From: Paracyclopina nana
Lineage: Eukaryota; Arthropoda; Copepoda; Cyclopoida; Cyclopettidae
Direction: 5' to 3'
Assembly (NCBI GenBank): GCA_019096065.1
Contig: JAGUCH010000008.1
Coordinates: 3,105,001 to 3,169,000 of the forward strand
Length of the DNA: 64,000 nucleotides
Shown: positions 27,401 through 61,168 of the stretch, one piece after another
Layout of the letters: every line of letters starts with the position of its first letter
Position numbering within the stretch: position 1 is the first letter of the stretch
Position numbers and translations under genes: made by a program
The notes under the pieces: model-generated
Databases searched by the model: none
What the model saw: the letters and a program-made list of their open reading frames with translations, nothing else
What the model was told of the DNA's origin: nothing

Positions 27401-27453
27401 GCGCTTGGAGGTGATGACTCTCCAGCTAGGTCATCATCCTCAATCGGACTCAT
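21442..27453 (-). CDS. Twitchin/projectin-like Ig and fibronectin III protein, kinase-less (13 exons)
   Basis: A 1579-residue muscle-type modular protein. Exons (minus): 27453-27184, 27120-26794, 26737-26217, 25944-25753, 25696-24951, 24894-24641, 24462-23941, 23873-23503, 23445-22977, 22911-22770, 22708-22406, 22350-21944, 21657-21442; every junction keeps frame. Domain order is Fn3, then Ig-Fn3-Fn3 four times, then Ig-Fn3: ten Fn3 (repeated KDDGGAPI or DDGGSPI, and EYKFRVSAVN) and five Ig (GVPTPTTTW, GEPAPIKGW and similar). This is the A-band pattern of twitchin and titin that interacts with myosin. There is no kinase domain and no signal peptide. The start ATG lies 2 bases after a strong acceptor, so a 5' UTR intron is likely; whether coding exons exist further upstream cannot be excluded, but none is seen up to 29 kb. 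Confidence 0.85.
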
Positions 27454-34255: not shown

Positions 34256-34274
34256 GCGGAGCATCAAAATCTGG

Positions 34275-34304
34275 AATAAAAACCGTGTGAAAACAGAAAA
34301 TAAA
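34275..34304 (+). terminator. Poly(A) signals of COPS7
   Basis: AATAAA at 34275-34280 and again at 34299-34304, the first 20 bases after the stop. The MEK start codon is only 165 bases further on, so the MEK promoter overlaps the COPS7 3' flank. Confidence 0.6.
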
Positions 34305-34469
34305 CTACTACTACTTTACTGAAGATTTGCCTATTTTTGCGCGGGTCATCTGGTAGCGCTGCATTCACTCTTCTTCGTTTCGAAACTGCTCTGCAGCTAC
34401 TGAGTACTGAGTTCAGCAGCAGGCGACTTTTTGTTTTGATTTCGTTTTCTTGATAAGGAGAAGGCTGTC

Positions 34470-35937
<1,468 letters not shown>

Positions 35938-37143: not shown

Positions 37144-38259
37144 ATGAGTGGAATGGGCCTTTCATTTTCTGAGCTTTGCTGCCTGTTCTGTTGCCCGCCA
37201 TTTCCGTCAAAGATCGCGGCCAAACTGGCCTTTTTGCCACCCGAGCCCACGTATTCGATAGAAGAGCAGGATTCAACCGGAGCCGCCCAAAAGCTTGTCC
37301 TTCATGACCGAGCCGAATGGCAATATTCAGAACGTGAACAAGAATCACTCGAAGTGTTTCACACCAGAACAAATAGGGGTAATCGCATTGCCTGCATGTT
37401 CGTCAGATGTAGCCCCAATGCTCGCTACACCATCCTCCATTCACATGGAAACGCTGTGGACTTGGGCCAAATGTCTAGCTTTTATATGGGCCTCGGATCT
37501 CGCATCAACTGCAACATTTTTAGGTACTGAAGACCATGCCTATTGTTCCTGCTATATGTAAAACGTAATTCGCTTTTCCAGCTACGACTACTCAGGGTAT
37601 GGAGCTTCATCTGGAAAGCCGTCTGAGAAAAATCTTTATGCCGACATTGAGGCTGCTTGGTGTGCGCTGAGGTCACGGTATGGCGTGAGTCCTGACAACA
37701 TCATCCTCTACGGGCAGAGCATTGGCACGGTACCCACGGTTGATCTGGCCGCTCGCTACGAGGTCGGTGCTGTGATTCTGCATTCTGCTCTTATGTCGGG
37801 TATGAGGGTGGCATTTCCGCAGACCAACCGCACCTGGTTTTTCGACGCATTCCCAAGGTGAGCTGAAGCATTACTTTATAATGCGATTTGCTATACTGTA
37901 TTACATATCTGCAATTGCTGCTTCGTCGCGAAGCCCTACTTTCCTGTTGACCTGTGACACAAGGTTTCCGCCTTCGCATTTCAGCATAGACAAGGTGCCA
38001 AAAGTTGCTTCTCCTGTGCTCGTGATTCACGGAACAGAGGATGAGGTGATCGATTTTTCGCATGGTTTGGCCATCTACGAGAAGTGCCCCAGGGCTGTAG
38101 AGCCTTTGTGGGTTGAGGCAAGTTCATTACTAAACGCAAAAAAGAGTGCTTCTCTATATCGTTTCTCTTCCGCAGGGTGCTGGTCATAATGACGTTGAGC
38201 TGTACAATCAATATTTGGAACGATTGCGCCATTTCGTGTCGCAGGAGCTAACCAACTGA
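37144..38259 (+). CDS. ABHD17: ABHD17 alpha/beta-hydrolase, protein depalmitoylase (4 exons)
   Basis: Removes palmitate from proteins such as Ras and PSD-95 at membranes. Exons 37144-37523, 37582-37857, 37985-38117, 38176-38259; 290 residues. The N-terminal cysteine cluster (LCCLFCCPP) is the palmitoylated membrane anchor. Family blocks: [39 protein letters not shown] (nucleophile Ser173), [12 protein letters not shown] (Asp238) and GAGHND (His267). Intron 3 begins with GC instead of GT (GAG/GCAAGT), required to keep the family-conserved WVEGAGHN. The frame stays open for 88 codons after the TGA. Confidence 0.93.
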
Positions 38260-38526
38260 CATTCGGCCGCCACGACCTCCACCTCGAGGTCGTCCTCGGC
38301 GGCTGCTACCAATCCCTCAGCTGCGAATGCTGCTTCTGGGAGCTCATCATCAGCCCCCTTGATCTCGGAAGCGAAAAAGACTCCTGAAGAGCCACCCGCT
38401 GATCCACCCGAAAATACAGACAACCACGTTTCTACCAAGACAGTTGTAAACAATGCTTCGGCCTCGAATAGCTCATCACTGTCCAACAACCAGGAAAATA
38501 GCAAAAATTGCGAGAAATTTTTGTAA
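38260..38526 (+). other. In-frame open extension after ABHD17 TGA (readthrough candidate)
   Basis: After TGA followed by C, 88 codons stay open to a TAA at 38524-38526. The peptide would be Ser/Ala/Pro/Asn-rich and hydrophilic. The region is more GC-rich than the 3' UTR after it. Either translational readthrough, a relic of a longer C terminus, or chance. Confidence 0.4.
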
Positions 38527-39679: not shown

Positions 39680-40517
39680 TTCGACAATAGTCTCACATCT
39701 TAGATAGAATTACCGTTAAAAGGCATTAGATTGTAATTATGGTGGAAAGGTGAACACACTTGACGCAATCTAAATAGAGCTTTTGCTATTTTAGAATTTT
39801 ACCATTCTGCAGAACATAATTGAAAGCAGCTGATTGAAGCTGAGAAAATTGAGTGAAACCAAAGGACCATTAAACGCAAAACTGAAAAAAACAGCTTTTT
39901 CCCATAAATTAAAAAAGTAGACTTGTTTTCAATTTTTTTCAAAATTCAATATTGACTTTTTGTCTAAGAAGCTCAATTTCTCTGATTCATTCTCAAGGGT
40001 GCAAAAGGAAAATGCACCGTTTCTCCAAAAGATGGCGCTTTTTACGACATTTAAATTCAAGTCTTAGCACAGCTGAACTGAGCCACTATTTCTAAGGCTA
40101 CGGGAGGCGATATTAAAAAAAAAATTCTGTCAAATAACAAAAGGTCAAAAAAATCAGCAAGTTAACGGAATAGGAAATAATTTTTATGCTTCTTTTATGC
40201 AATGAAATGCCAAAACTCGTGAAAATGTAGAGTTTAAAGGTAAGTGAAGTTGAGCTTGGCTTAGAGCCGGTCCCAAATCTCATTGTTTTGACTTCACTTT
40301 CAGAATCGCCAGGGTGAAGTAGTAGAAAACTGCCGGCGGCGGCAATTTGTGCCTCTGCACTCGGTTTCACCAGTGTGTGCATCGCTCTCAAATGATGTCC
40401 GCGGATTTTCTGAAGCTGTTCCAGTCGTCAATCAACATTGCATGCAACTCAGGCTGAAAACTGACCACCATCTGTGGTCATTCTAAAGATTGCATCTTGT
40501 GGTTCAAGATTAAAGAG
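39680..40517. promoter_or_regulatory. Divergent promoter region (TM2D1 / CdGAP-like exon 1A)
   Basis: TM2D1 reads left and the first CdGAP-like exon reads right, 838 bases apart. AT-rich, with poly-A runs near 39890-39960 and 40118-40126. No gene; the minus-strand frame 40113-40391 has no domain. Confidence 0.4.
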
Positions 40518-40642
40518 ATGAGCACCAGCCTCGTTTTGCCAAATAACGATGCTGATCATCTGGACAGTGTCATAAGACAATTTCAATTTCAATTGGAAGA
40601 CCACACTGCCCTTATGGAGACGAGGAGAAAATTCAGTTCAAG
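40518..40642 (+). CDS. Alternative first exon 1A of CdGAP-like gene
   Basis: ATG followed by 41 codons plus two bases (MSTSLVLPNNDADHLDS...RRKFSS), ending AG/GTAAGT in phase 2. An in-frame TGA lies upstream near 40456. It can join only a phase-2 exon, such as 47971. No acceptor-like sequence directly before the ATG was needed to explain it. Confidence 0.6.
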
Positions 40643-43600
40643 GTAAGTTTCAATTGATAATTAGCTAAGCTTTCAAATTAGAAAGCGTCCGGTCATTGAC
40701 ACACACGAGTCGTACCTGTTCAATTTCCCTGTTATTGCTCTGATCTCTATCTAACACGGTTTGCTACCAGGGTTCCGATCGGAATCATCGTCTACAAATT
40801 GCTCTGTTATGTAGCTGGCATTACTGAGTCGAAAAAATAGTAGTAGCCCACAACTCGTGATTTGTCCTGGGGGCAATTGCTTGAATAAGCATCAGATGAG
40901 GGGAAATCAAAATGGGACCAGACTCAGATTGCAGGGAAGAAACTGGTGTTTTTCCTCTGGGACTTTTTCTGCATTCCTGACATTATTCAATGGGTCAGCA
41001 GCTGCATACATACTGCAGAGTTCCTGCTCTGCATGCTGGCTAGTTGGCAGGTAGAGAGAAGGATGGATTTCCACACACAAAAGTGTTTTTAATATGCCAA
41101 AAACCTTCCATGCCGAAATGTGAAACTTAATCTTCTCTCTCAGCAGCTGAATTCGAGAGGGGTGGTTGTTTTTATTCTTCCCTTTCGAAAACTGCACTAT
41201 CCTCTTGTGACATTCTCGCATTGCTTGAGAGAGGAGTGAAACTCCAAAGTGCAAATTGAGTTTTCTTCCACAGCCACATTGTTGTGGTTATTATGCGTCA
41301 TCACCTATGCGCATAGTACTTTGAATAATTGACTTGTCACAGCCAAGCAGAAGCAGCAAGTCGTCGTCACCTTTAAAGGCTCCTATCGTGATGTTCAAGA
41401 TGTCAATTTCAAAGCTGGGAAAACCTTTCGTCGAGCAGGCTCAAAGTGGAATTTGCAGAATGTAAAACCTACTCGCATGCCATGTTTGGTTTTCAGAGTG
41501 CAAATTTCATCACCACACATTTGTGAAAAGTGAGTGGGAGAGGATGGCAGCATCCAGATGCGCAAAACCGTGTGTTCGTGTGTGTACAATTTTAAGGTCG
41601 TATCACAACGTAAATTGCTTTAATGCAACAGAAAATTATGAGCCATACATCATTACCGTCAGAGTCAGCAGGCTCTACCAGAAGTAGTTCCTGTTGTTCA
41701 AGGCATAATTTTTCAATCACGAATTCATTGGATTTCGTTTAATTAGAGTCATTACGAGGCTCCTAGAGGCATCATTATTTATGATGATTGCGATGGAGTA
41801 CGATCAACAATTTTCTCATGTCCATCGAGCTTGCGTAGCAAATCTTTTTATTTACGATTTCGATTATGCTCCTATTACAATAATAATGGATGGCAATCAT
41901 GTTTTTGCGCTGACAGCATGCCTCATTGAGAATTTCAATTGCCATTCGATTCAAATTCATGAATCTCGGATGTCCGCTTGGAAAAGATGAACGAGATCTT
42001 TTCTGCGAGCTGCATCAATGTGAAACCGAAAATTATTTCTTGTTTTGAGAAAAGCTTCAGCCCTAATTGCCGACTTTCCTCTTCTTCACTCAAAATAGCT
42101 TTCCGCAAATCTGAACGCTGTATTGGCCAATTTGGAAATTCTTTTCGAGATTTGCTCGCAGAGTTATCTGCATTTCAACGATAATTCTACGGTGCTTTGT
42201 TTGATTCCTAGAATTGCCCGCAATTTCCTTTCGCGAGCACCACTTGATGTTGTTGCTATTTCAAAACTGGACCTCCAATGGTCTGAATAAAAATATTGCG
42301 TCAACTTAGATCAAGAGCTCCCCTTGTTCTCGACCAGCGTTCTGTGACAATGAAATAATTGCACGCAGAAAAACACACATATAAAACAAAGTGATGGGAG
42401 AAACGTATCGGGCCGGGGTGGTGTCCAAAATCAGTAAGGGGAGGGTAGGAGATCATTATAACAGCCACCCTCTCTTCTCTCATACTAGCAGAATGTTCCA
42501 AGACAGTTGAAAAGTGTGTATGTTGAAATGCAGATCAAGCATGAGCTAATATATTATGACTCGTCTGACAGCAATGTTTCTTCGCATGTATAGGAGAACA
42601 TTTGCTAAACTGCCGACTTCCAATCATTATTTTTGTCACACTCGCACAAAGCGAGCAAAAGATATAGGAAAAAGTGCCCTTTGGATTCGCCTGCTTTATT
42701 TTTCAAAGGTTTCAGTCTCCCTGAAAAGGCGGAGTCATAACCAACATCTGCCGTTCCGCTCCGCTTTCAGTAGTTCAAAGTCACAACTGACACCTCAAAA
42801 TTGCCACTAAAAAAGGGAAGCACGTTTTTTATTAATATGCTTGCTTGCTTGCGTGCGTTCGTCTTCTTCTTCTGATTAAGACGCGCCATATAGAAGCCAT
42901 ATGATATTCATTAGCATGTAGCCGTACACTACGAGTTCGTTGTTGCAAGGCCCTAAAGGATATTTGTGCATATTAGGATATCACTGCGTGAAATCGTGCA
43001 AAAAAATGCATTATCGAAATGGCCATCTATATTCATGTAAAACGAGAGAGATGTCCTTGGATCGAGAATTTTGCAAAGGCGCTCGCGTTACTTTTTTGTG
43101 GTCAAAATACCAAGTGTGCTAAGCGAAGCATGGTGGTGCTTTACTAGCTAGTTGTAAGTGCTGCAGCTTTGAACTGACAAGTCTTCAGCAGTTGTCGTTC
43201 AGGCGCTGTTATTCGACTAATACAGCAAAGATTTGTGCTCTTTTTTTCTGCAAAAGTGTCTTTTTCCCCCCGTGCTCTGACTGATTGTGAAATCGAACCT
43301 AATACTTCTTCAGAAGAAAAAGTTGTTTGTTGGTGCGGTTTCAAGTTTCAAACGTGACCCCGGCTAGCTTGCGAGTGTGTGTGACATTGTTGTGCCACAT
43401 TTGTCTTCGATTTTAAAGTGACTGCTCCAATATGAGGAGAAAATTATCTGTAAGCTTCCAAGGGCAATTGGCGAATAAACTGCGAGCACTTTAAGCAGCT
43501 TGAGCGATATTGATGCGTTCGCTTCCGGCCTCATGTTGAACTTTGCCAGCAAAGCTCTAATCACGTGGTAACAATGTTTCGCTCGCAAAGTATGGACATG

Positions 43601-46600
43601 ACAGCAGAGCTTGGTGGCTCTGCAAAGCCTTCATGCCAATCCTCAAAGTTGAAGAGTCGGAAGGAGGCATTTATCAAGTTTCCAGCGAATCGCATCAGCA
43701 ATTCCATGAGGTAAGCAGCTGGATTTTCTCAATTATGATCCACACTCAGTTTTAAGGCACTTTTGATAGTTCGTATATGTGGCAATACTTAGCTTAGACT
43801 GTTATCGTGAAAACGAGGGGGACGAGGCTTCAGTGACTCCTTTGAATCCTACCAGTGCAGTGGTAATGGTCCCAGCAGATGTGCAGCAGAGTTAAGCAGT
43901 CTTCTTGCTCTTCTTCATCCTACGTTGAATATAAGCAACCAAGAGACGTTAGGGGCAACTATTTAGGTCATACACGACTGTGAGGGGGCGGGGGCTACGG
44001 GTGGTTGTAGGAAGGACAAAAACAATGCATTATTCAATTGAACAACAACACAAAGTTTCTTTCGCTGTTGGAAAATTAGTCATGGACTCAACAGCTCGGT
44101 GGAATGCATTTTCTAGTTGGGCATTCTCTTTTGTCTTGCTACTGGCGCAATTTCCACTTTCTAATTGAAATAAAAAGGTGAAGGAGGCAGACAATTGCTC
44201 CATTTTGGCCAGATGAAAGTTTGTGCATAGTTATTGATGAGGATGCCCAGGCCTTTTGTGGTCGCTATATACGGCCACTCCTTCTAATCCCCAAAGCAAC
44301 ATCAAGGCACAAACCTGACTTGGGAGCTGCTTTAGCACTCCCAAGTTTGGTGATAATGCAGCACAGCTTTTTTTTCCTCCTCGTACATTTATTTCTACGG
44401 CTCCATGTGTGTGGTTTGAAAAAAATGCACTGTTGGCGGACTGAATGAAAACGGCCTAATTATCCTTAATGTCGTGTAATGTAAGCATACTAAGCAGTCA
44501 TTGAAAACAAGCTGTGATTTGATCTGAATTTCATCAGGTTCTAATTTTGAATCAGACTGCTGATGCCAGAGAAAAATGCATTTCGGCAATAAGACGCGCC
44601 ATGCATACAGAGCTGCTATAGCTGTCTCCCTTATTTATCCCCCAACGTAATAAGGAGCCATAATAATTGTGTTATCTCAATCCGCTGCAGTGCTTCTTTT
44701 GGCTCTGTTTTCACGATATGGTGCATTACGAACGCAGCTTTATTTCCAACGGTCTGACACCCAGAGTAATTGCATATTTTGGGTTGCAGTGAAGCTCGTG
44801 CAGTTCATACTTTCTATTTGAGCCAACCTTTCTCCAGCCCTCTCCTTTCAGGGACATCATTGCTTGCATCCCCAGATGTAGCTTTTGTTGCTTGGCAGTC
44901 TGATTTTTAGGAGACATGCGCGACGACACACATTGGTGTAACCTGACCCAAGTCAAACTCAAGCCTAGCCGGGCGTTATAGTAATAGAGTTGCTATTTTT
45001 CGCAGTATCTGTGCGTATGCACCTTTCTCGATTTTTTCCACGCAAATATGCCCATTGTGAACAACTGGCAAGGCCTTACTCGGCCGCGTGTGTGTTCCAT
45101 CTGGGCCTTTCTCCCCGACCGCTTGGCTCTTTGGAAATGGACTGCAGTCTTATTAGAGCTGACAGCTAGCTGAGCGGGCTTTGAGTTTTGACTAGTGCTA
45201 CACCCAAGCAGTCATGCAGTTCCCTAATCGAGAGCCTAATTTAATCAAGGCCAAAATGCTAGATGCCATTCTGTCCAAATACTCATTGGCCGGCTCGAGT
45301 CGACTGCGGAGGTAAGATTTCCCCTTGAGCTAATCTAATTAAGGTGAGAATTGATGCTCATGTCGCATTGCATTGACACTAATTGAGCGAAGCGCGCTGT
45401 ACTCTCCTTGTTTGCCTCGCATTCTGCCAACTTTCTTGAAAATCGAACCTTTTAAAGGCCTATACTTTGTTCAATTTCTCCACGCGGCGCGGCCAAGTCA
45501 ATCGTCGTCTGCTCGTTTCTCGCTGTTATGTTGTTGAAATTGCCAGCAGCGAAAGATATACGTAGATATGCATACGACAAGGTTTTCTTGAATATGTTAC
45601 ACATGCAACTACAACATCACTCTGAGTTTACTTGGCTGTAGCCTAGATAGAAAACCACGCAAACTACAGTGCACACCACACACAGATCCTACAGAACTTG
45701 CGAGCTCTTTTTGCCAAGTCACGAACCTGTGCTAATATGCATAGTGGGCCTGTGTAAAATTGCCTAATTACACATGGCCCCTTCGAAGTGATTTCCCCTA
45801 ATTTGGCCTATTTCTCCATTTTCGGACAAGTTGACTTGAATGGACTGCATCAGGGAAGGCAGTAGTAAATTGCGGGTTGTAAAGAAAAGTGTGTCTATCC
45901 AGCTCTCCGTAATAGCGTGTCTTGGCAATTTTGGTCGCGTGGTATTAACATACATCCGGCAATCGCCAAAGTCTACGAGACCACCTGTAAAATCCAATCC
46001 AGCCAAGCATTAAGGAAGCAATAAGCAGTAATCATGGACAACAACAACAGCAGCAGTAGAATTTTTCAGTTCTCTCTGGATCTCGCTGCAGTCCAGACCT
46101 AAGAAGTGCGTTTATGCCTCGGCTTGGGGTAAAAGCGTCGTCGTCACCAGCATCATATTGAGAGTTGTAGCAGATTGTCAGATATTGCCAGATAGCTCCC
46201 ATCATCCGGTGCTGCTGACGTATCCCCCAAATCTGCGGAAAAATTGCGAAATTCTCGTCTTCCTTTGGATTCATGTCGCTCGAGATCAAAGGAAGTTCAT
46301 AAAAAGAGCTCGCGATTGTCAATGCACATGATCATCTTTCTGTGCATTCATTGTGAGTGGTGAATGTTCAAGGTGCATCAAGAGGATCCACATTTTGCAA
46401 TAATTGTGTTGAGAAGAGCTTGTCTTCGGCCAGGAGGAAAAAATACAAGTGGATGATGATGATTACATTTGGTGAACTGTACAAGTGTTGTTGCTATATG
46501 AACTTATCCAAGCATATTCAGCAGTTTGAGGCTTGATACACGCGTAGTACTACTGCTGTTCCTACGATTGCTTCTCAAGTAACATCCTGGAAGATTGTCA

Positions 46601-49600
46601 AGTTTTATCCCATTCACGAGCAGCAAGGCTGGCCGGTGTTTGCAGAGTCCATGCTCAAGACCGAGGCTTTCGGGTGCGAGCTTATCAGTGACGTTTTCTA
46701 TAGTCAAGTCGAAGCAAGTCCTGATATCCAAAGGAAGCTGCTGCTTCACATCCCAGTTAAGAAAGTGATAATGACTCGGCGTGAAAATCGAAATTAATCA
46801 TGTGAATTGCCGTCACTTGACCAAAGCCTGGCTTTTACTTGCCCACGCGCGCGAAGCTTGCAGCAAGACGCTAACTCAAACCGATACTTTCCTTGACGCA
46901 AACTACTCCTTACGGACTGCTCCGTATCGCAGGATAGTAGCGATGTATTCGGCCAGTATTTTGAGCCGCCTCGCAAGTAGTGCAACAATGACTCTAGTTT
47001 AAAACTGTGACTCCCCACGATGGAGGCCACGTTTCAGAGCTATCTGGCCGAGGCCGTCTACGCCATGGAGCGTGAAAAAAGTGGCCTGGGGCTACCACAA
47101 GATGATGGAAAGCTATCAACCCGCTTTATATCCTACATTGACGCTGATTCCAACGATGACGAGAATAAAACTGATGAGGACGCTCCCCCTCCACCAATCC
47201 CAGTCAAGATGAGGGATCGAAGAGGCCAACGGCCTCGAGGTGGACCTCGGCCGAGCGGATTCAATATTTTAGATCCCTCCACCAGCAACTCGCCAATTTT
47301 GTTCCGGAGAAACTTGAAATTTTTCATGAGTGTCAACAAGAAGCAGCAGCGGAGGTCTCCTCCCACCTTTTATTTGCAAAGGAGCCAAAGTACCAAAGAA
47401 GTCAGAAGCTTTGAGAGGAAGGGTGAAAAGTTGAGTGCGGCAGGGCAAGATGATGGAAAGCAGCCGTCAATATTCAGGACATTTGGGCTCAAAAGAACCC
47501 CCACTTGGAGCTCGGTCGTGGCTCACCTTAATAGGTCTTTCAAGTCGACTTCACCTGCTTCGTCGTCAGACTCGTCAGCGAGCGAAACCAGACTCTCCTC
47601 TGTTTGGAGGAGATCACAAAGTTGTCGCAATATCGAGAGAATATTCAGTAGTGGCAGTTCCAGAAGGTGATTTCTTATATAGTTGAGTTATACGCTGTTT
47701 TCAGCCTTGAGAACCTTTGAAATTCAGCTGCGCAAGGAGGGCCGATTTTACTCCCCTTTCTAACGGAGAGGTGTTTTGATTACGAATATACTATGTAGTA
47801 GTACTCATTTCAGTCCGAGTGTAGTGAGCTTTCTCTTTTTTTCATGCAGAAAGCTCAATGACTAATAGCCAGCTTTCAAGTACTTGACTTTGTATTTTGC
47901 AATGACAAATGTACTCATTTAACGTAGTACTTTGAATTTCATATGTGTTTATTATTGCTTATCATTTCAGGCCCTCTCAAGGATCTCAAACGAGGATGAG
48001 CACTTCAGACCTCAGGGCTGGAGGTTTGATCTCTGGACCGACAGGATTCGTGCATGTATCCGGATACGGTCGCAACAGCTCCATTTCGGGATCAAATAAT
48101 TTCAATATATCGACGACCAAAATTGAAACGACTTCAATATTGAGGGAGCAAACAAACAACAGAACTCGAGTGAGAGAACTATCCAACATCGACCCCAAGT
48201 TTACATCGCAGGTAAGCCATGTTGCAGGGCAGTAAACCAAGTATAGAACAAAATGATGTATTGTTGGAGGGGAAAATGAAAGCAGCTATATATGAATATT
48301 AAACAAGTTCATCACAAAATTCCTTGTATGGCTTATCTCTGTAAAAATTGATAAAACATGCTAGCTTCCTTTGGAGCTGCAATTGCACTGAGGCGTATAC
48401 TTTTAGCTCCAGTTTTGAGAGGAAAAAAAACGGTTAGGTGGAAAAAAAGCCAGCTCGTCTGTGCATCAAAGATAAATATTTCTCCCAGAGTCATCTGTTT
48501 GGAGCTAGTCAATTACGCAATTTGTCTTCGTTGCTGGCCACACGCATCGCAATATAGTGTACGAAGGAGTCGTGAGATCATTACTAAATGTTCTTTTTGC
48601 CTTTGGTGTGTGTGTGTGTGTGTGTGGGAGGGAGCAAGGTCCCAAGGGAAGCTTGAATGCATTTGGCTCATATATTGTTGTTGGACAGGGGTAAAGGTAA
48701 AGGGGTGCGACCCATCTGTAAACAGAGGCATACGTACGTAATTCGGACATATTGCTCTATCTTTTTATTGCGAAAAGTTCGCAATTTGGCAAGGAGGGTT
48801 CATTAGAGGGTTTGTTATTGTTGGTTCTTCTACAGCCTCGTCCTATATTAGCTTTGAGTGTTTTTGTAGCTTGTGTCTCGAGTCCACAGTTGCAGCACGT
48901 ATTGGCGTGAAATTGGACAGCAGCACTTCTTATCAAGCAGGGATGGTCAATAATCTGACGTGACAGAAATAATCTCCTTGATTTTCTTCTCTCCCAAAAG
49001 GGAAAAAGGTGCACTTGAATTAGTGGGAAAACCGCTGTTTCTCCCGCTTAATTCTTTCGCAGCAGCAGCAACATCGAGTTGCAAACTTTGCCAGGCTTTG
49101 CTGGTACATGGTGGAGATTTTGAAGGTATACGCCATTAGAGTAGGAAAACCACATTCTGGAGGCTACGCTCGAGCAATCTCTTGGCAACGTAAGACACTT
49201 GCGTGGCTCCTGCTGCGAAAAGGAATTATATAGATATGTCATCTGACCGAGATAAAGGAGCAAAGGTGAATAGAAGTCTTAGCCTTTTAGCCATGAAAGC
49301 GCAATTAGAGACGATAAGTTTTTGGGCTGCTAATCCCCAAAGCAATAGGAGCAATTGTAGTTGTAGCAGCTGTAGTATTGCTTTTCCTGGGCCACGGAAG
49401 ACGCACGGGCGCTCCTTGAAGGGGATTCGGGGGAAAAGTCCCCGTTCATGTCAGGACTTTCTTGCTGCTGCTGCTTGGAAGCGCGCTCCGAAGTTCGAAG
49501 CTCGAAAAACACAGAGCTCTTCTTCTCGTCCACTAGTTGTAGCTACAACTTTGCCAAAAACAGTCAGGGGAAACCAGTGCCCTTCCTCAGCTCAACATCA

Positions 49601-52600
49601 TGTTACCATCATTCAAGAGTTGACAATTCGGCTTTTTGTGTGTGATTCATGCCATACAGTACAGTACAGTGTGTCCCCCTAAGCGCAACTTTTGCCAAAG
49701 CCTCTTCTCGGTTTTCTGATATACTATCATGTGTGTGCTCTTGGGGAGCTGCCACAGCACTTTTTACTGGGAAAACTTCTTTTATATATTATGCTGCTTG
49801 GCAGTTTTCTGGCGTGACATTATTTTCTCCTTTGTTTAGGAGGCGTGTGCTGCCAGCTCGTGCAAAAGCAGTTTGCAAATGAAAGTCAGTTAATAGTAGT
49901 AGGATTTACTTTTTATGGAATCCGAGATATGGTCCCTTTTTCGGCGAGTTCTGCTGCCCCGCCGCGAGGGACTTAATGAAAAAGCGCCAGAAATGGGCTT
50001 AATGAGGCTGTAAAAACTGAGATTTTCTGTTTACGTTAGAAAGCTGCATGGAACGAAAATCTAGGACAAAAGGTGAAAGTCCACTACTTTGTCCGCATAA
50101 TTTTTTTCGCTACTCCTAAACTTTGGCAAAGAGCTTATCCAAAATCTTAGCTGTGATTATCTGGAGCCCATGGGAATGAAACTCGAAACTAGCTCGAGCC
50201 CAGTCAAGTAGACAAATAGCAGAACGACAGCAAACTAAGGCCAAGCTCAAAATAGTGTGCATTTCTTGCTAGTATCTAGTACAAAAAACCTGAGATCATC
50301 CCATGAAAGGGGCTGAGAATGGGCTCGTAGTAGGGAAAGGCTTTGGCAAAAAGGACGTGGTGCGGTATGACCTGAATTGAAAGCGAGTGGAAAAATGTCG
50401 CTGAAATTGCCTCGGAAAAACCAGAAGCCAGCGCCTGGTTTCGTTCAGGGTCGGCTGCGTCGTTATTCCGACCGAATGATAGCCTCTTGCAAGGATTTGG
50501 CTGCAGAATGTGCTGTAAGTACTTCAATGCAGATACAAATAACCAACCCAGTGTTCTTCTTCAGCATCCTGCCATTAGGCTCTCCAAGGGGGCGCGTCTC
50601 TCATTAAAATCTGTTGGAAAGCAACCATAAAACTTCTGACATTTCCTCCCAAATCCCACCACATTGCTCTTCTTCATGCAAATCTGGTATCTGTAGCCTG
50701 GCTCATGAATAAGAAATTCTTCAAGGGTGTTTTCGACCTTTTTAGCTATGCAGTGGAAAATATGATGCTTTTTAGCATCTCAGTGATTTCTTCAGCTCCA
50801 CTAGCACAATTTGTATGCATAATGCTCCTATAGTTGCTGGCCCTCCTGCAACATCCATCTACATATCTTTAATTATGCTGCATGCGATCCAGTACCAAAT
50901 CCCTGCCCACTATTGCTATTTGTCCTTGTGGTCAGCTCGACTCAGTTTGTAACAAGTCTTTTTATGTGTGCTTGCTTTCCGAGCTTTCACTCGCGTCAAT
51001 GTGTAAAGTATTGAGCTAGATATGGCACAGAGGTCTTTTTAATCATGTTCTCAGTATGATATGGCTCTATAGAAAAAAGATGGCAGGCATGTTGATGCAC
51101 ATTTCCTCAGTTGGTTGACCCAAATGCATCTGATGGATCAAGCTGGAATTAGGGTTGGCAGCAGCAGAAAATTGCTTCTATAGTGATGAATCGGAGTAAT
51201 GGCGGCCGGCAGCAGCTATAATTTCGACAATGCTGGTAAAAGGCATTCCTTGAAAGCTAGGTTGGTCCAGCTAGGAATTAGATCGATCTTTGGCAGGGTC
51301 AGCCAAAAGGACCTACTTTTCCGGTGCGGCCTTTTTCTCTACGAAAAAAAGCAGCCTTACCTAATTTCCAGGATGGGACTTTCCAAACAGATCTTCACGA
51401 TGTTTGCTGAAAGTTGTAGCATTAACTTCTCTCAAGGAAATTTATGGCAGTATCCATTTTGAATGCAGTCCTTTTTTCCCTCATGGAATCTCAGATTCTT
51501 TTCGTGCCTACTGTATAGTTTTTACGATATGGAAGCATATACTGCTAGCATATATCTGTGTGGCCTCTAACACATTTATCTTCGTTTTTCAGAGTGGGCT
51601 TTGCTCAAGCTCGGAATTGGAAACCTCACGAGGCTCAATCCGGATTCAGCATTTGACAGCCTCGTCCAACTCGACCTCAAATTGCACCACAGTCGGGCTA
51701 CATGGCAACAATCCGGACAATGCCAAGTCAAGATTTCCTCGACTCGAGGAATGTGCTCACTTTCATTACGAGTTCACCGACATTGGCCCAATTACGGTAT
51801 AGGACTCCAACACTTTGATAATTGGCAGTGATTTCATGCATTATTTGCAGGCCGAGCTGTTGAGTGAGAATGACGAGATGAAATCTTTGTCCTCGACCAA
51901 AGGTGAAAGTAATCAAGTGATCCAGGTGTTCAGCGTACAAGTGACTTCAAATGGGAAATGTTGGGTGGTGAGAAGAAGCTTTGAGAACTTCGAGTTTCTT
52001 GATCGCCAAGTGCATCAGTGCATATTTGACCGGCGATTCTCGCAATTGCCTGTGATCCCTCAAGAGGAAAACGTGACGCCTAACAACGGTCGGACTCATA
52101 AGGTAAGCAAAGCCTTTCTTTCAAGTACTCGCTCAAGTGCTGCTCTTCACATTGTGCCTAATCTGCCCACCCTTGTACATATATGCTATGAGGACCATCA
52201 TTCCAATGCTACAAAAGCTGTTCTATTGCTACTTTTTATGTTGCCTTGCAAGAATTCGGCTAATTTCGCATTTTCCACATTTTTGCACAAGTTCCACTTG
52301 TCATTTGGGCTGACATGTCTCTGGTTGTTTTCTTTTAATGTATCCTCAAGAGCTGTGTCGATGTCACAAGCTAGCAAGTAGTTCCAGGCTTCATGGATAG
52401 GTGGCGCTCCGAGTTATTTGTGATGCGAGAATGCGCGCCCTCTTTACGAAAAGCTCGCAACTAAATGCGGTGCACGCAAGTGGCATAAAGTATTGCCAAA
52501 ACGAGTGACACTTGCGCCCTCCCCCTAATTGCTGCTTACGAAACCCCCTCTTACCAATATTGAATTATAATACATAATACCATGCGTCATCAAATGAGAG

Positions 52601-55600
52601 AGCTAGTTGCTGTAGAGGGGTGATATTCCTGTCGAATTTCACGGCAAACTTCTAAATTTATGCGCCCGAGCGGGCCGCAGAAGTGGAAACTAGACTAGCT
52701 TTCGCCGACTTTAGAGGAGAGTGAGCGCGGCGATCTCAACAAAGAAACCGGGCTTTCAGTCTGTGTGCAAACGTATTGCAAGAAAAAAGAAGCTGCCATT
52801 TTATTAGTACTATGTGAAGGCCGCTGCAGAATGTCTTTTCGCGTGATTCATGGAATCCATGCCGGTGACATCATGGTCAACTGCAAAGATGTAAGCTAAT
52901 CATTTAAGCATGCAAAACGCCGCTTTACCTTGGTGCCCATTAATTTTACTGCTGCTGCTTCTTCTCTGGTGGTGATCAGTGTTTGGCATGTGCAATGCCA
53001 CAAGATTGCAATTGCATCATCGCACACCGCCAAGGCAGCAGAATACCAGTCTCACTTCAATGAATTTCTAATGAGACACCAAGATGGCTGCAGCAATTGT
53101 TTATAATTAATTCAGTGCAGCTTCTTGGCCTTTTTTTGGCTGCTGCAGCAGTAGGCAAAAAATGGGATTTTACTAGCAAAATATTTTCGCTATTTTTGAG
53201 CGTGTAGCCATTTTGTAATCATTTATGCTAAGTGTTGCCCTTTAGCCCCTATCAACAGAGTGGAGTTTTTTTCGAAGCATCTTTGACTGTGGATGGCTTG
53301 TGTGCAAAATATCATCATAGCATGGCTTGATCCTCCTTAGGGCAAATAGCAAGATAGGGTTTAAGTCGCACCCTAGATAGTTTCGTTTTCACGACCCCTT
53401 CATTGAATAAACATGGCGTTGCTATTTGACGAATTTCAACTTTCAAGCCGCGGTTTATCTCGTGCCTCAATCTTCAACGCTTTCAAGCTTCGTTTTCGCC
53501 TCTAATGCGCAGCTAAGCATGGCATGGATTTTCGATTCTAATTTTAACTGAAGGGTTTTAACTACGCGCGCATTCCCTGCGAGGAGAGAAGCCCTTTGAT
53601 GGCTTATAATGAACTCGGTATGCAAATGAGGAGTTTATCAGTTACAAACATCGGTCTAATATCAACTCATGCATGCTTAGATGATAAGCTAGCTTTCATA
53701 AAGCTATGCGATGCATTTGTATGACAGCCTTCCGATGTTTTCTCACTTTATCCAAACATTTTCTCTCCTAAGGAAAAAGGGAGGGTGGAAAAGGGAGAAT
53801 ATATATTTTAGTGGTGTTTCGGCCATCATCAAAATTTCGTTGTTTTAAAGCAGCAATTACATATTCAGTTCATGAACCATGTGACATCCTCCACCCCAAG
53901 CTTGTTGGACATATTGACGTGTACTGTGCAGATGTTATTGCATGTAATTTTGCATTGATTATTTAAAAACCTGCTAGCCGTACGCATTCTGGACAGGAGG
54001 GGTCAATAACATATGCATAACTTTGCTTCACTTAGCTTTATTGATTTCCCATCGCCAGCTGATTGATTGATTCAAACGATGTGTTATGCAATCGAGTTGT
54101 CGACATCGTTTATGGCTGACGACTTTGTGTGTCATAATTGATCTTTTGGCATCCTCCTTTATTATTGGCATTGGTGTTTTTCCAGCATCAGTGTGTGTGT
54201 GTGTGTGTTTTTGAACGCGCTGCTAAAGAAAAGATTGATTTTCTGGCCGGATGAGTTACTGGTACAGCCTATTCTCAAATTGGATACGCACATCACTCCA
54301 CGATTTTCTCACTGTGCTGATGTGTAGTAGCTATGCTGAAGGTTTCTCCCAAATTTTCTATTCATGGCTTTTGCTTGATGAAAAACTGGCAAAAAGTTTT
54401 CTGTTCAAGCAGTTGCGTGATCCGATGGATGGGTACGTTCCTGTGCTAAGCAGCTCCCCACCAGAACTTTTCCCTTTTTTTCGTTAAATAATCGATTACT
54501 TATCATGGTTGATTTTAGTTCTCGATGATTACTTGTCTCGGTTGCAAATCGGTGACGGAATTCAATGCTGAGAAATCAATTTGCTAATGAAAAGTAACTG
54601 ATATTCAAAGTTGATTATTTCCTGATCATTTCTTATGCTTGGCCACTTTCAGCAGATTATTCAGGAACTTTTCAGGAACTTTCCAAGAATTGAGTTCAGT
54701 TAGTATTCAAGGACTTGATTTCAGCTATTATTCAGGGACCTGTCAAAAATTATTTTTTTTACAGCTTTCTAGCTTTTTGATTAGGCTTACTAATTCTTTA
54801 AACAATGATGGCTTATAACTGAAAGAAAGAAAGTTAGAAAAGCCAATATGAAAGTTTACCCAGGGTGGACTCGAACCCATGAACCTCAGATTTGGAATCC
54901 AGTGCCTTGCCTCTAGACCACAGATGTCTCACTCTGATTTGGGCTTTTTTAGCTATAATATTGTGCAGAACATACTCTAGATGGAGCTAGCTTTAATAAT
55001 TAGTGTACTGGGACATGTTTTTTAAGTCCAGGTGTCACTGAATAGTTTTTGACTGCTCAAGAAGAATACACAATTGAAAGATTGCTGAAATAAAAAGTTC
55101 AAAATAGCTCTTGAAACTGTGAAAAAGTATTTATAATGAATAGTTCTCGAACAAAAGTATGTGAATAGTTCTTGAACTAAGAAAAAATAATCATTCTTGA
55201 AAAGTTATTGACATGAACATTCCTGAATTGTTATTGAATACTCAAGTTTCATTCATTATTGAAAAGCTACTGAACATAAGCTCTTGCATAGTTCTTGAAT
55301 TGTTAAGAAGCTTTTGTTGTTGAAAAGTTGCTGAAATGAACATCACTGAATAGTTCTTGAAAAAAATAAGCATAATTTATTGTTGACAAGTTGATGATTG
55401 AAAGTTCTTGAATAGTTCTTGAATTATCAAAAAGTATTCATTATTGAAAAGTTGTTGAATTGAATAGTTCTTGAATAGTCAAGTAATATTAATCAAAGAA
55501 TGTTTATCGAGATTTGTGTTAAAGATTCTTTGCCAAGAATTCGAGTAATAATCATAAACGATTATTTCTTTGAGTCAAATTAACCGACTAATCGAGACAA

Positions 55601-58600
55601 AATCGTAGAACGAGTCTTTACCGAATACCTACTTTGGAGGAATCGTGTAACATTCGTTCTCGAATCGGGAACCTAAGTTCTGGTGGGGCTGCTTGCTGAT
55701 CCAATTTTTTGGTTATAATAGCCGTTTGCTGCCAGTGCAGCGATCGCGTGAGCTCACCCATTACTTATTCAAATAAATGTGGCCACCGTTTTGGGTTTTT
55801 TCTTTCACGTACGTGGCTACTTGTGTGATTTTGTGCTGCCTGGCTTATTTTGGCAAACTTTTACGAATATCCTGCATTGAGTGGATCATAAAAACCATTT
55901 GGTTGGAATATCCTAATTCCACGCAGACCGTTTTAAAAAAAAGGTCGAGAGGTAAGATAGGAGCAGCTGCGAATTGCCCACGTCGATTCGGTCATTTTTA
56001 TTGTATCATAGAAGTTCCTTCTTTGTTCATTGTTTGGCTCGTCTCTTGTCAGAAGACTCTTGTCTTTTTTGAGATCAAAGCCGGATAATCTGTAAATGAA
56101 TTCCTTTTCGTGTCTGCATATATGCTACGCTGCTAATTTATGGCAATCAGGTGCATCTACTTAGTAAATAGAAGTACTTGTGAAATTGCAAGTGGGGCAA
56201 TAAAAACTAGGGGTTGTTGCTTTGTCTTCTCAAATGCTATTTGGAACTTGCAACATGGCTAAAGTAATTTGTTTCTGTCAGGCAGGAAAAGAAAGTTTGT
56301 CAATCTTATGTACTGGGGCTAATTTGCACCTTCAGCTGAAGCTGGTGGTACTTAGACAAATGTCTTTCAACGCCAAGTTTTGATCACAGTACCAAGATAG
56401 GCAGGCATTCTGCTTTTGCTGATTGGCTGATACATATTGCTGTAAGGCTTTGTTATCATGCCGCGAATTCTAATTAACACGTTTCTCTCGGACGGAAAAA
56501 ATTCAAATCAACTCCTTTGGTCCCCTGTAGTTAATGAACTACGAGAGCTCATGTTGACGTCTTCCATGACTTTTAACCCCAAACTCTGATAAATCGAAGC
56601 ACTTCGTGAGCCATAATATAGGCTTGCAGTTTTGCAGGCAAAAGAGTTATGTTGTTGGAACCAAATCCGCGTATTTCAAAGGGAGTAATTTGTCTCTGTC
56701 AGGACATGATTAGTCTCTCTACCGCAGATTTCTTCTTCCTACATGCGCGTAATATTTGGAGTAGCATAGCAAATTCTGGCTCAATTTTGGGCCACATACC
56801 CTTTTTACCACCAAGTCCGCTGCTGTTTTATGCGCCTGCCCGCCCTTTATGTGGTGAACTGGACAGAGAAAACCAGGAATTTTCCAACAGCAGACCTGAT
56901 TGTATCTTCGCTGCGCTGCAGCTGCCATGCTACATTTTCAATTGTGACTTGGGTAACAACAACGCCTCGCAAAACTCTGACCTAGTCCTTCACTTTATAT
57001 ACATAGGAGCTTGAAGCATTTTCAAGCGTAAAAAGAGTTGGCTGCGAGAGTGTTACAAAATGAGCAGAGCTCTTCACAAAGTAATGGCCTCCATGTGTGC
57101 AATTTTTCCTTTCCCCCCAACTGCTATAGAAGTCATTGAGTCTTCTTTTGATCTCGTTATAGCGTGACGAAATAATGTGTGAAAATGGTAAAAAGCACTC
57201 GTTTTGGAAAAGCTCCGCAAAAGCAGCAGCAGCAGCTCTAAAGGTTAGGCAAACACAAATGCTTTCGTTAATATTAGTTTTGTGTGCACATTTTCACATC
57301 GCAGTGGGGCCATACAATTCTCCTGCTATATAGTACTATATTAGAACGATGCCCGCAGAGAAGAGGAGCGTCGTAAAACCTTTTTCTGCTTCATTATGAG
57401 GGGTGCAAGATTCGCACTATATCATTGCGGCTTATTTATGGGGCGCGGTTAAATGAAATGATCAAGATGAGCAAAGCTCGCAAGCTGTTACCAACTGCTA
57501 GAATATGCGAGCTGCTTTGAATGTTGCTGCATTCAAACGATGAAAATTCACTCGAAAGACACATGCTATTGTTGTTCCCTTTTTCGGAGGAAAGTCTGTC
57601 AGAATTCTAGTTTTTCAGTTCAGAGGCCACACCCAATAAAATGTGGCATGAATTCTGCCATAAATTGCCACACAGTGCAACTTTAGCCAATTCGTTTCTC
57701 CAATGAGAAAATCAAAGCAAAGATATTTTCTGGAAAAGAGCTTTCTCAGAAGCTTTTTATTTGTTAAGTCAGTTTATCAGCATTTATTACCCACAGTGGT
57801 AGAGAAGAACGACTTGAGATATCAACTCCCAAGAGATTTTGCCAATTTTTCCCCTCATACCTGACTTGCGTCTTGTGGATTTGTGTTACTACTACTACTA
57901 CTACTACTAGCTGTGTATTGGTCGTAAAATGCACCATTCTCGCATGTTTTCACCCTTTTTCACCCCAAATTGTGCATAAGGAAAAATACTTCCTGTGTAC
58001 ATCCTCATCTTGAAGTTATTCCTACATTACTTGGCACTCTTGCTGATTTCGAGTTACTTGAAAATCCTGCTGTGCAAAAACTTTCGCTATTGACCCAAGA
58101 TGATGATGGCTGTTTGCAAAAAGAAAGTGGCTAGATCAAAGTCCGTCAAGTTTTCGGCCATTCTTCATTGTCAGATTAGAATTTGCCAGAGCTACAGATC
58201 AACTGCAGTTGTTAGCCCCTTCCATCAATTAAACTGCATTATTTATTCTCTGGCTTGGCTAATTCGAAATTAAGTCAGGATCGAACTGTATTATTTCACT
58301 CGCAATATGTTGATTGGGGGATGATGATGATGATGGCTTCATTAAGGCAGACCAAAAGTAAGATTCTATGACTGGAATTCCAACTAGGTCTCCTCTCTCT
58401 CATCATTTTAAAGCCTCTCGAGAATTGCCACCACAGCACAGTGAGGGGCTTCTCCTTCGTAGCTACCAAATGTTCCCTATAACATCTGACTTTTCGTGAT
58501 GCAGCCTTAAAGCATCACTGTGTAATCTTATAAAAAGGGAAAGACGGATCAAGGCAAAAAATTCCATACTGGCTCTCTTTGCGTTTCCCTCGAGGACCAA

Positions 58601-61168
58601 ATCTTATTTTCTCAATTTATAGCATAGGAAAGCTTATGTAGCAGTAGAAGACGGCAATAATTCATCTTTTCTATTTGTTTTTCCACTTCTATCTGGCTTT
58701 GTTTTTCTGCATATATTGATCTGATTTAGGCTAGAAAGGTAACGTTGCAGCAGCTCGTACATTTTTGTGGCTTTTAGCCGGAAACTGGGTCGCCGCTGCT
58801 ATATTTCTCGAAAAACAGTTCAAGAGGTTTTCGATGTTATCTGCGCATCTGCTAAATAATCTGGGAACATTCTATTTCCTCTTACGCCCATAAAGGTGAA
58901 GATACCAAGCATTTCAGCATTATTGATGCAATTAGTGCTCGTGACATAGGTTGATTTTACCTTGCTTTGAGAGTGGCAATTTCAATTTGCCAAGGACTCT
59001 GCTCGCATACTTTACCGCAAAAATGGGACAATTACAGCAAAGTGTGTTGAAAATTCTGTTGAGCGCAATTATCAACTTTTACCTTGGGAATATAATGGTG
59101 ATGATTTTACACAAACACTTTCTAAACTGCATTAATATGGCCCATTTATCACGCGCAGACTATTCATTTTTGCTCCTGTAGAAGAAAAAAGATTGTCACA
59201 TTATTCAGTCGAGCTGAGCGCAAGAACTGTAAATTATTGTAGTTGAACGACTTGGTTGAGGTTGGGGCAAAAAAAGTTTTCAATTCAAAGTTAGCTCCAA
59301 GTTTTCTTTTTTGTGAATGATGAACACGGTGACTTTCACCTTTATCATCATCGTGAAGTTTGGGATGAGTTTTTTGCCCTCCAGTTGTAATTTCAGGGGA
59401 AGCAGGCAAGTAAAACACGGAATTCTCTTCAAGCACCCATTTTTCAGCATGCAAACTCCCTCATTTCATTTAAGTGAGAAACTATAGAGTTTGTGTAGCG
59501 TTTATTCTCTGTGCTTCCAAATGATACGGTCAGAATAGATATATAGTTAGAGTGGCTCAACATCATCATGTCACATCTTTTCTGAAGGAGAAGCATCGAG
59601 AAATGTCGTCGTCCAATGATGAAGCTTCGCAGTATACAGTATACTCAAGAGCAGTTGTCACTTTCTTTCGTGTCCTGGCATTTAGGCTCTTTTCCCAACC
59701 AAGAAGAGGAGCATCATCCAACGAGGACGACATTCATGACGACAACTGCACTCATTATTTGCTCCTTTTGTATGCTACCAACATTTATTCAGCAATTGTT
59801 GTTACAATTTTCTGTGAGTGCTATTTTTACTGTGTTTGGGAGCAGACAGCCTCGCTACACTGCAAGTTCTTCGAATAGTGCATTAAATTGATGCCTTCTT
59901 ACTTTGTAATTGTGTAATGTCAAGTAAACTGGATTTTCTAGAATCCGGAGTTTTTGCGTTCTTGCAGCACCACTTTGTTCAGAATTTGCCTAACAAAGGC
60001 AACAACTCTGATAAACATTTTTTCCGAGATAGTTTTGCGTAGCTCTTTTATTGTCTTTTGGCACCAGCCGCTCTTTCGTAGAAGGCTGCCACACAGAAAA
60101 GTTGGCCTTTATAAAAGCATATGCAACGTGGTACAGCAATGCAAAATAGTGCGACGTCAGATTGGGCTCGTCATATGTTCCATCATCATCCTTGTACCAA
60201 ACCCAAGCAAGCGTGTACAGCAGTATCTGGGAGTAATTGGAAACCGAATATGGCGTCCTTGGCTTCGTTTTCCCCCTTGTTGATTTCTGGCCAAAAAGTA
60301 GAAGTTGATGTTTGCAGCAGGCCACGGCGTTTCGTAGCAGAGCGTACTACTGCCGCAAGTTAATCTATACAGTAGCTGTTAAGGTCTCAATGTAGAATGG
60401 AACTCATGCATGTTGGCTTTCGTATCAATGCTCGAGATCCTTTCCTCTCTCCCTCCTTGTTGCCTTGAGAGCCTACTACTGCTGTAGTAGTAATGTCCAA
60501 CTTGAGAAAGCATGTGTGGCGCAAGCTTGCGCGAGCTTGAGGGTGCAGGAAGGCTTTCGCTCCCTCTCAAGTTCAGTATTGCTGTAGCTTTCGCCAAAGC
60601 TGCAAGGTGTCTCCCTGTTGGCTTTGTTGGCAAATAATCATGACTCATTCGGCCATGCCATCATCTTCGCCAGCCCATTGTGTTGACAAGATCCTCTTTG
60701 CTCCCTCATTTGGCTGAGGCTGCAGTATCTGCTACCAGTAACGAGAGGCTAATCTTCCTAATTCAATAAGCCAACAGCCCGAAGGCAGTACGAATAGCTG
60801 TGATAAAAGCCATCATCACAGGTGCTAAAATCATTTTTTCATCTTGAATTGGGCGTTGCCTGCTTTTATGGCGTCGTAGCAGCTACAGCAAGTTGACAGC
60901 TTTTTCCCGAAGAGATTTCGATGCATATTTTTGGTGATTATTTTTGCAGGATTCAGTGCGCCAATTGTTGTCGAGTTACCTGCATCGTTTCTCCACCCTG
61001 GCGGGTCCTGTCATCACATGTGGTCCCGTTCTTAACTGGCTGGAGCTGGACAACCGTGGCCATCGCCTCATTGTGACCGAAGATTGCGCCATCAACACTC
61101 CTGCCGTGGCCGCGGCCTACGCCATTAAACGATATGCCAAGCAGGCCAACGATGAGATCAGCTTTGAG
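40518..61168 (+). CDS. CdGAPr: CdGAP / ARHGAP32-33-type RhoGAP, 5' part (continues past window)
   Basis: GTPase-activating protein for Rac/Cdc42. Shared exons seen: 47971-48211 (CRIB-like motif), 51593-51796 and 51851-52102 (PX domain: ECAHFHYEF, SVQVTSNGKCWVVRRSFENF, HQCIFDRRFSQLP), and 60950-61168 (CGPVLNWLELDNRG, INTPAVAAAYAIKRY), which matches the stretch just before the SH3 domain in human ARHGAP32 and 33. All these junctions are in phase (47971 enters in phase 2; the others in phase 0). The SH3 and RhoGAP domains are not in the remaining 2.8 kb, so the gene runs off the right edge. Several 5' exons with their own ATG feed this core and are listed separately. Intron 52103-60949 is 8.8 kb. 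Confidence 0.85.
43574..43710 (+). CDS. Alternative first exon 1B of CdGAP-like gene
   Basis: ATG followed by 45 codons plus two bases (MFRSQSMDMTAELGG...NRISNSM), ending AG/GTAAGC in phase 2. The in-frame stop TGA at 43511 has no other ATG after it. Basic, Ser-rich residues. Confidence 0.6.
45214..45311 (+). CDS. Alternative first exon 1C of CdGAP-like gene
   Basis: ATG followed by 32 codons plus two bases (MQFPNREPNLIKAKML...SSRLR), ending AG/GTAAGA in phase 2, with an in-frame TAG at 45193. Joined to 47971 it makes an RRPS site (basophilic kinase type). Confidence 0.6.
47020..47666 (+). CDS. Alternative first exon 1D of CdGAP-like gene (long)
   Basis: ATG with an in-frame TGA twelve bases upstream (47008), then 215 codons plus two bases, ending AG/GTGATT in phase 2. 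It encodes a Ser/Arg/Lys-rich, mostly disordered region with a Pro stretch (DAPPPPIPVK), a basic patch (RDRRGQRPRGGPRP) and several RxxS sites (RSQST, RRSQSC). It lies only 304 bases before the shared exon 47971. No known domain. Confidence 0.75.
47971..48211 (+). CDS. Shared CRIB-like exon of CdGAP-like gene
   Basis: Acceptor ATTTCAG, enters in phase 2, leaves in phase 0 at GTAAGC. At 48029-48070 it reads ISGPTGFVHVSGYG, close to the CRIB consensus ISxPxxFxHxxHVG: I, S, P, F, H and the last G match and HV is replaced by GY. It is followed by a short acidic/basic tail (VRELSNIDPKF). Confidence 0.75.
48605..48628. repeat. (TG)n microsatellite
   Basis: About eleven TG units in the intron between 48211 and 51593. 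Similar runs at 54191-54208 and 63420-63434. Confidence 0.9.
50395..50514 (+). CDS. Alternative first exon 1E of CdGAP-like gene (phase 0)
   Basis: ATG followed by exactly 40 codons (MSLKLPRKNQKPAPGF...DLAAECA) ending GCT/GTAAGT in phase 0. In-frame TGA at 50368. It fits exon 51593 directly and would give a protein without the CRIB-like exon. Confidence 0.6.
51199..51297 (+). CDS. Weak candidate first exon 1F of CdGAP-like gene
   Basis: ATGGCGGCC start, 33 codons to a weak donor (AGG/GTCAGC) in phase 0, 295 bases before exon 51593. A better-looking donor at 51236 (CTG/GTAAAA) would be out of phase. Confidence 0.22.
51593..51796 (+). CDS. Exon before PX core of CdGAP-like gene
   Basis: Acceptor TTTTTCAG, phase 0 in and out, 68 codons. 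The Ser/Thr-rich start is followed by FPRLEECAHFHYEF, matching the FPKMxxCAHFHYEN run that opens the PX domain of ARHGAP32/33. Confidence 0.8.
51851..52102 (+). CDS. PX-domain exon of CdGAP-like gene
   Basis: 84 codons, phase 0 in and out. WVVRRSFENFEFLDRQVHQC and FDRRFSQLP match the atypical PX domain of ARHGAP32/33; the usual phosphoinositide-binding RRYxxF is RRSFENF. Confidence 0.85.
52831..52890 (+). CDS. Weak candidate first exon 1G of CdGAP-like gene
   Basis: ATG followed by exactly 20 codons (MSFRVIHGIHAGDIMVNCKD) ending GAT/GTAAGC in phase 0, able to join 60950. It would start a form without the N-terminal PX core. The frame is open back to a TAG at 52696 and a possible acceptor (GCTGCAG) ends at 52829, so it could also be internal. 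Confidence 0.35.
54859..54929 (-). other. tRNA-like block
   Basis: On the minus strand it reads TGTGGTCTAGAGGCAAGGCA followed by GGGTTCGAGTCCACCC, like A and B boxes, with CCA in anticodon-loop position. Anticodon stem pairing is poor and it abuts a repeat block, so I treat it as tRNA-derived. Confidence 0.35.
55030..55490 (+). repeat. Degenerate tandem repeat (GAATAGTTCTTGAA)
   Basis: Many drifting copies of GAATAGTTCTTGAA or AAAAGTTGTTGAA. A related drift (TTCAGGAACTTTT) is at 54655-54760. The style is like the minisatellite at 3548-3895. Confidence 0.65.
57887..57909. repeat. (ACT)n microsatellite
   Basis: About seven ACT units in the long CdGAP-like intron. Confidence 0.85.
60950..61168 (+). 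CDS. PX-to-SH3 linker exon of CdGAP-like gene
   Basis: Acceptor TTTTTGCAG, 73 codons, phase 0 in and out. It ends DEISFE/GTAAGA where ARHGAP32/33 continue with VGDIVSVIDMPP, the start of SH3, so the next exon should open with that block. Confidence 0.88.

Follow-up and report, generated by a model that had tools for sequence, protein, structure and literature searches.

Four ATG-bearing exons at the 5′ end of a RhoGAP gene of the copepod Paracyclopina nana are probably alternative start exons, each of which would be spliced to the same common exon. The gene begins in a stretch of 64,000 nucleotides (nt), hereafter the window (i.e. positions 3,105,001 to 3,169,000, forward strand, of contig JAGUCH010000008.1 in assembly GCA_019096065.1). 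The four predicted start exons and the exon that they share are as follows.

40304..40642, + strand: alternative start exon 1, with a leader from 40304 and the ATG at 40518; 41 codons plus 2 nt, ending in phase 2
43574..43710, + strand: alternative start exon 2, coding part; 45 codons plus 2 nt, ending in phase 2
45214..45311, + strand: alternative start exon 3, coding part; 32 codons plus 2 nt, ending in phase 2
47020..47666, + strand: alternative start exon 4, coding part; 215 codons plus 2 nt, ending in phase 2
47971..48211, + strand: common exon, entered in phase 2 and left in phase 0

The phase-2 donors of the four ATG-bearing exons all fit one acceptor at 47971. Their coding lengths are 125, 137, 98 and 647 nt (each 2 mod 3), and in-frame stops lie 63, 63, 21 and 12 nt upstream of the respective ATGs. 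An earlier sequence-only reading had proposed these exons together with a fifth at 50395, which has a coding length of 120 nt (0 mod 3), an in-frame stop 27 nt upstream and a phase-0 end. All five exons were found at the positions that it gave, with the lengths, phases and upstream in-frame stops as described, and the frames and phases of exons 1–4 into 47971 and of the fifth into 51593 were exact. The interval assigned to the array ended at 52890, which is the end of a sixth candidate that this reading had left unlisted.

Splice sites were scored with a model self-trained on 49 introns (median length 68 nt), a small self-made set for which 40–53 kb was masked and introns were required to be noncoding. 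Relative to these introns, the donors of exons 1–4 ranked at 0.96, 0.96, 0.90 and 0.80, those of candidate exons 5 and 6 at 0.27 and 0.76, and the acceptors at 47971, 51593 and 60950 at 0.71, 0.55 and 0.86 (with a score of 10.5 for the last). The donors had been described as strong, which holds for exons 1–4 and fails for exon 5. Two earlier self-trained splice models were dropped for drifting into false introns inside coding sequence; under the second of these, the exon donors ranked merely at 0.00–0.20.

The arrangement of exons 1–4 is beyond chance. Six donors with scores of ≥8.3 were present in 40000–47960 (i.e. 40239, 40642, 43710, 45311, 45343 and 47666), and four of these end an ATG frame of ≥32 codons in phase 2, the sites at 40239 and 45343 having no frame. 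In 1000 first-order Markov sequences of the same dinucleotide make-up, such phase-2 sites were absent from 866, while 124 contained one, 10 contained two and 0 contained three or more; when any phase was accepted, 676, 265, 49 and 10 sequences had zero, one, two and three such sites, respectively. Exon 4 is the strongest single case: phase-2 frames of ≥32 codons precede 7.9% of noncoding GT sites (n = 1561) and frames of ≥200 codons precede none, as compared to 215 codons for this exon. The chance probability of 1/27 offered previously counts phase alone, and hence understates exons 1–4 and leaves out exon 5. An unlikely alternative is that some of exons 1–4 are real and that one or two of the short ones (i.e. 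exons 1–3) are chance frames beside GT sites, as suggested by their weak coding scores and by the simulated sequences with one or two sites; the donor ranks of 0.90–0.96 and the matching phase in all three short exons, together with the absence of three or more sites from every simulation, argue against it.

Internal exons were considered by searching for acceptors scoring ≥5 within 700 nt ahead of each donor. For exons 1–4, no such acceptor preserves the frame from a position at the ATG or before it; exons 1–3 lack any frame-keeping acceptor and exon 4 has only three weak ones, all inside the exon (5.3, 5.9 and 6.5). With the in-frame stops located 12–63 nt upstream of exons 1–4, these results make it most improbable that a single transcript contains them as successive internal coding exons, an arrangement favoured by exon 5, in which an in-frame acceptor at 50449 (8.5) yields a 66-nt cassette of phase 0–0.

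The 5′ leader of exon 1 probably contains an intron, whose length is near the training median.

40240..40303, + strand: probable leader intron of exon 1; 64 nt, donor AAG|GTAAGT (10.4), acceptor 8.5

A TM2-domain gene lies next upstream, on the minus strand, and its start was placed by eye near 39680. Because of this position and strand, the 5′ end of the RhoGAP gene probably lies between ~39680 and 40239 and the two genes probably diverge. One promoter near 40.0–40.2 kb could be proposed, from which a noncoding leader exon ending at 40239 would be spliced to mutually exclusive, ATG-bearing second exons. The strong donor at 40239, which lacks an open frame, and acceptors at 40304 (8.5), 43203 (9.9) and 44852 (9.7) fit such an arrangement; exon 4, however, has only weak acceptors (5.3–6.4) in the 800 nt before its ATG, and acceptors of ≥8 occur at 1.1 per kb over 164 kb, so that one near an exon is unremarkable. 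The absence of any acceptor of ≥7 in the 800 nt upstream of exon 4 matches the expectation for a transcript start. We regard a single promoter for all four exons as unlikely.

Several observations weigh against exons 1–4 as alternative start exons. The cut-offs of 8.3 and 32 codons were fixed after the exons had been seen, which favours the result. Three more phase-2 frames of 31–51 codons occur at weaker donors (i.e. 40896–41050, 5.8; 41544–41683, 6.2; 43019–43113, 6.6), indicating that donor strength does part of the work. Coding scores of exons 1–4 were mildly above noncoding, with fractions of 0.17, 0.15, 0.15 and 0.07 of null frames (n = 196) scoring as well; exon 4, with 215 codons, was unmatched for length in this comparison because the null frames had 20–60 codons. 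Under the same null, two of four common exons tested were slightly better (0.11 and 0.08) and two clearly better (0.036 and 0.005). Good acceptors lie upstream of exons 2 and 3, 371 nt (43203) and 362 nt (44852) before the ATG, and a leader from a shared promoter could therefore join these two exons, which keeps the single-promoter alternative alive. Core promoter motifs were also lacking: none of the initiator (Inr)-like words in the 900 nt ahead of each of the six starts was accompanied by a downstream promoter element or a TATA box (the search for TATA being confined to sequence upstream of such words), and for exons 3 and 4 this interval contained no Inr-like word.

Inr-like words occurred at 1.3–1.7 per kb; the one useful hit of the promoter scan was such a word 75 nt ahead of candidate exon 6. 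The G+C content of the 300 nt upstream of the four ATGs was raised (0.468 versus 0.429, local p 0.002), and the upstream CpG ratio showed no significant rise (p 0.10 for exons 1–4; 0.09 for all six). The sequence-only reading had assigned each exon its own promoter; start exons remain the best reading of exons 1–4, and a separate promoter for each is putative, the upstream sequence showing raised G+C and no promoter motifs. If exons 1–4 are alternative start exons, transcription would begin at several places over 7 kb, the start codon would come from whichever exon lies nearest the cap, and the phase-2 donor of that exon would be joined to the common exon at 47971. The sequence itself shows the frames, phases, splice signals, in-frame stops and core domains; the exons would be transcribed from separate promoters, with the choice made by tissue or stage. 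The outcome would be four RhoGAP proteins that have a long tail and the PX-like, SH3 and RhoGAP parts in common and differ in their unrelated front ends.

The open frame from 47971 runs on over a chain of good splice sites to a stop at position 6521 of L011, a stretch beyond the window in which the SH3 and RhoGAP exons (1748–6521) are found. The remaining predicted exons of this core are listed below.

51593..51796, + strand: common exon, phase 0–0, ahead of and into the PX-like region
51851..52102, + strand: common exon, phase 0–0, PX-like region
60950..61168, + strand: common exon, phase 0–0, between the PX-like region and SH3
L011 1748–2247, 2739–2966, 3068–3626, 3682–4714 and 5176 to the stop at 6521: further core exons, beyond the window

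The RhoGAP domain (PF00620, expect value (E) 5e-44) had human RICS (ARHGAP32; 3iug) as its best relative among solved proteins, with an E of 9.7e-69 as compared to 4.2e-38 for the next. An SH3 domain precedes it (PF00018, 30.8 bits; cut-off 22.9), and N-terminal to the SH3 there is a weak PX match (PF00787, 17.2 bits, below the cut-off of 21.6) at residues 395–463 of the exon-4 form, which is the expected place. No Pfam family was matched by exon 51593..51796 by itself. The order of domains in vertebrate ARHGAP32 and ARHGAP33 is PX-SH3-RhoGAP, and ARHGAP31, which is CdGAP proper, is not known to carry either PX or SH3. On the weak PX match, the SH3 and RhoGAP domains and RICS as best solved relative, the locus is read as the 5′ end of a single ARHGAP32/33-type gene; of the CdGAP/ARHGAP32-33 core proposed before, the ARHGAP32/33 assignment stands and strict CdGAP does not. 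A 565-residue query spanning exon 4 and the exon at 47971 as well as the PX and SH3 regions gave eight matches at E ≤ 0.001 in the 92-Mb assembly of 10 contigs, of which five were this gene and three were SH3-only matches elsewhere; a second copy of exon 4 was accordingly not found with this query and threshold.

The predicted front ends from exons 1–4 comprise 42, 46, 33 and 216 residues with net charges of −1, +6, +5 and +14. As had been proposed, they are mutually unrelated, the best blastp E between different peptides being 1.8. A test for amphipathic helices showed nothing clear in these peptides (shuffle p 0.05 to 0.92). The motif RSQS occurs once in the exon 2 peptide and twice in the exon 4 peptide. 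In PX-RICS, one report places a 14-3-3-binding motif, RSKSDP, at residues 1793–1798, with a CaMKII site at Ser-1796 (PMC4799364). Because of this resemblance, control of the front ends by basophilic kinases or 14-3-3 proteins is a lead, no more; the front ends might steer either localisation or such control. If the exons are used, a compact genome would gain a number of versions of one Cdc42/Rac regulator with different addresses, and the gene would offer a clean test of whether the choice of front end sets where a RhoGAP works. Gene models might otherwise carry one start exon only.

Two further candidates lie downstream of the common exon at 47971.

50395..50514, + strand: candidate start exon 5; 40 codons, phase 0, fits 51593
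50449..50514, + strand: the same region read as an in-frame cassette; 66 nt, phase 0–0, acceptor 8.5
52831..52890, + strand: candidate start exon 6; phase 0, 20 codons, with 60950 as its putative splice partner

Neither exon 5 nor exon 6 is beyond chance, because comparable phase-0 candidates exist in the same introns (48358–48696, 53872–53943 and 59317–59409) and in the next (64104–64163). The fractions of null frames coding as well were 0.29 for exon 5 and 0.06 for exon 6 (n = 196). Exon 5 may be an internal 66-nt cassette, which for this exon is about as likely as a start exon, and joining of exon 6 to 60950 would skip 51593–51796 and 51851–52102. Both are possible extra members of the array. 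The earlier count of at least five N termini is consequently upheld for exons 1–4, which exceed chance, and not for exon 5. It is very doubtful that all six starts are used, with five of them supplying front ends to a PX-containing RhoGAP and the sixth, an internal start at 52831, giving a form without much of PX. Such a form would resemble RICS, although exon 6 is only a candidate. Were all six used, the gene would parallel the vertebrate division into PX-RICS and RICS and, in addition, exchange unrelated front ends, so that Cdc42/Rac control at many subcellular sites would fall to this one gene.

A coding-like open stretch (46609–46773, + strand, score 12.1) lies just ahead of exon 4 and contains an ATG at 46651 and a phase-0 donor at 46764 (6.2). 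It may represent a further start exon or an upstream open reading frame, and was set aside because a minus-strand stretch (49357–49536) scores as high (12.5).

Alternative first exons are a common way to vary protein front ends. The gene resembles vertebrate ARHGAP32 (RICS, PX-RICS) and ARHGAP33 in its PX-SH3-RhoGAP order, albeit with a weak PX match, and in having the RICS RhoGAP domain (3iug) as best solved relative; it differs in that at least four predicted start exons feed the PX-containing form. Among the matches listed in a literature search, the titles and abstract openings described no first-exon array in ARHGAP32/33. DLC1, STARD13 and STARD8 constitute another RhoGAP subfamily. Their isoforms arise from alternative promoters, and those of DLC1 differ in the N-terminal region, have the functional domains in common and seem to differ in subcellular location, according to PMC5118400. 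Alternative starts of this kind are what is predicted here; transcripts were measured for the DLC1 group. The sDscam genes of chelicerates have alternative 5′ exons in an array that feeds a constant exon, and a promoter generally lies before each cassette (PMC4835542). This is likewise an arthropod gene with alternative 5′ exons, but its cassettes are tandem duplicates encoding Ig domains whereas the start exons here are unrelated. Tandem-duplicate 5′ cassettes of the sDscam or clustered protocadherin type were not found among the six peptides (best blastp E 1.8). We take CdGAPr to be the fly member of the ARHGAP32/33 group. CdGAPr is among the Drosophila GAPs listed in PMC7927664, in which follicle-cell shape and polarity were without visible defect in the mutants. 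Alternative promoters in RhoGAP genes and arthropod 5′ exon arrays are already known, and the predicted array is another case.

The intron 52103–60949 contains a degenerate AT-rich tandem repeat (55149–55479, period 62/124) and, by eye, a tRNA-like stretch (54860–54930, − strand). The latter was called neither by ARAGORN (bacterial code) nor by Rfam at the gathering score, and is therefore perhaps a tRNA-derived repeat. The sole Rfam match in the window was a weak tRNA match at 8003–8060 (− strand, 30.2 bits; cut-off 29), for which ARAGORN (bacterial code) made no call. Coding segments at 21454–27462 (− strand) gave one I-set immunoglobulin match (E 5e-13), with others fibronectin-like by eye, and perhaps belong to a titin/twitchin-type gene. 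Among the upstream neighbours at 33205–38270 (+ strand), CSN7 was matched at E 7.3e-17 and a protein kinase, MEK-like by eye, at E 5e-22; one further segment resembled an alpha/beta hydrolase but stayed below cut-off. Among 85 candidates scored for Chitin_bind_4, a cuticle-protein domain that marks arthropods, 80 matched at E ≤ 0.001. Beyond the window, a 707-residue open frame (L011 7113–9236, − strand), MLH1 by eye, lies tail to tail with the RhoGAP gene.

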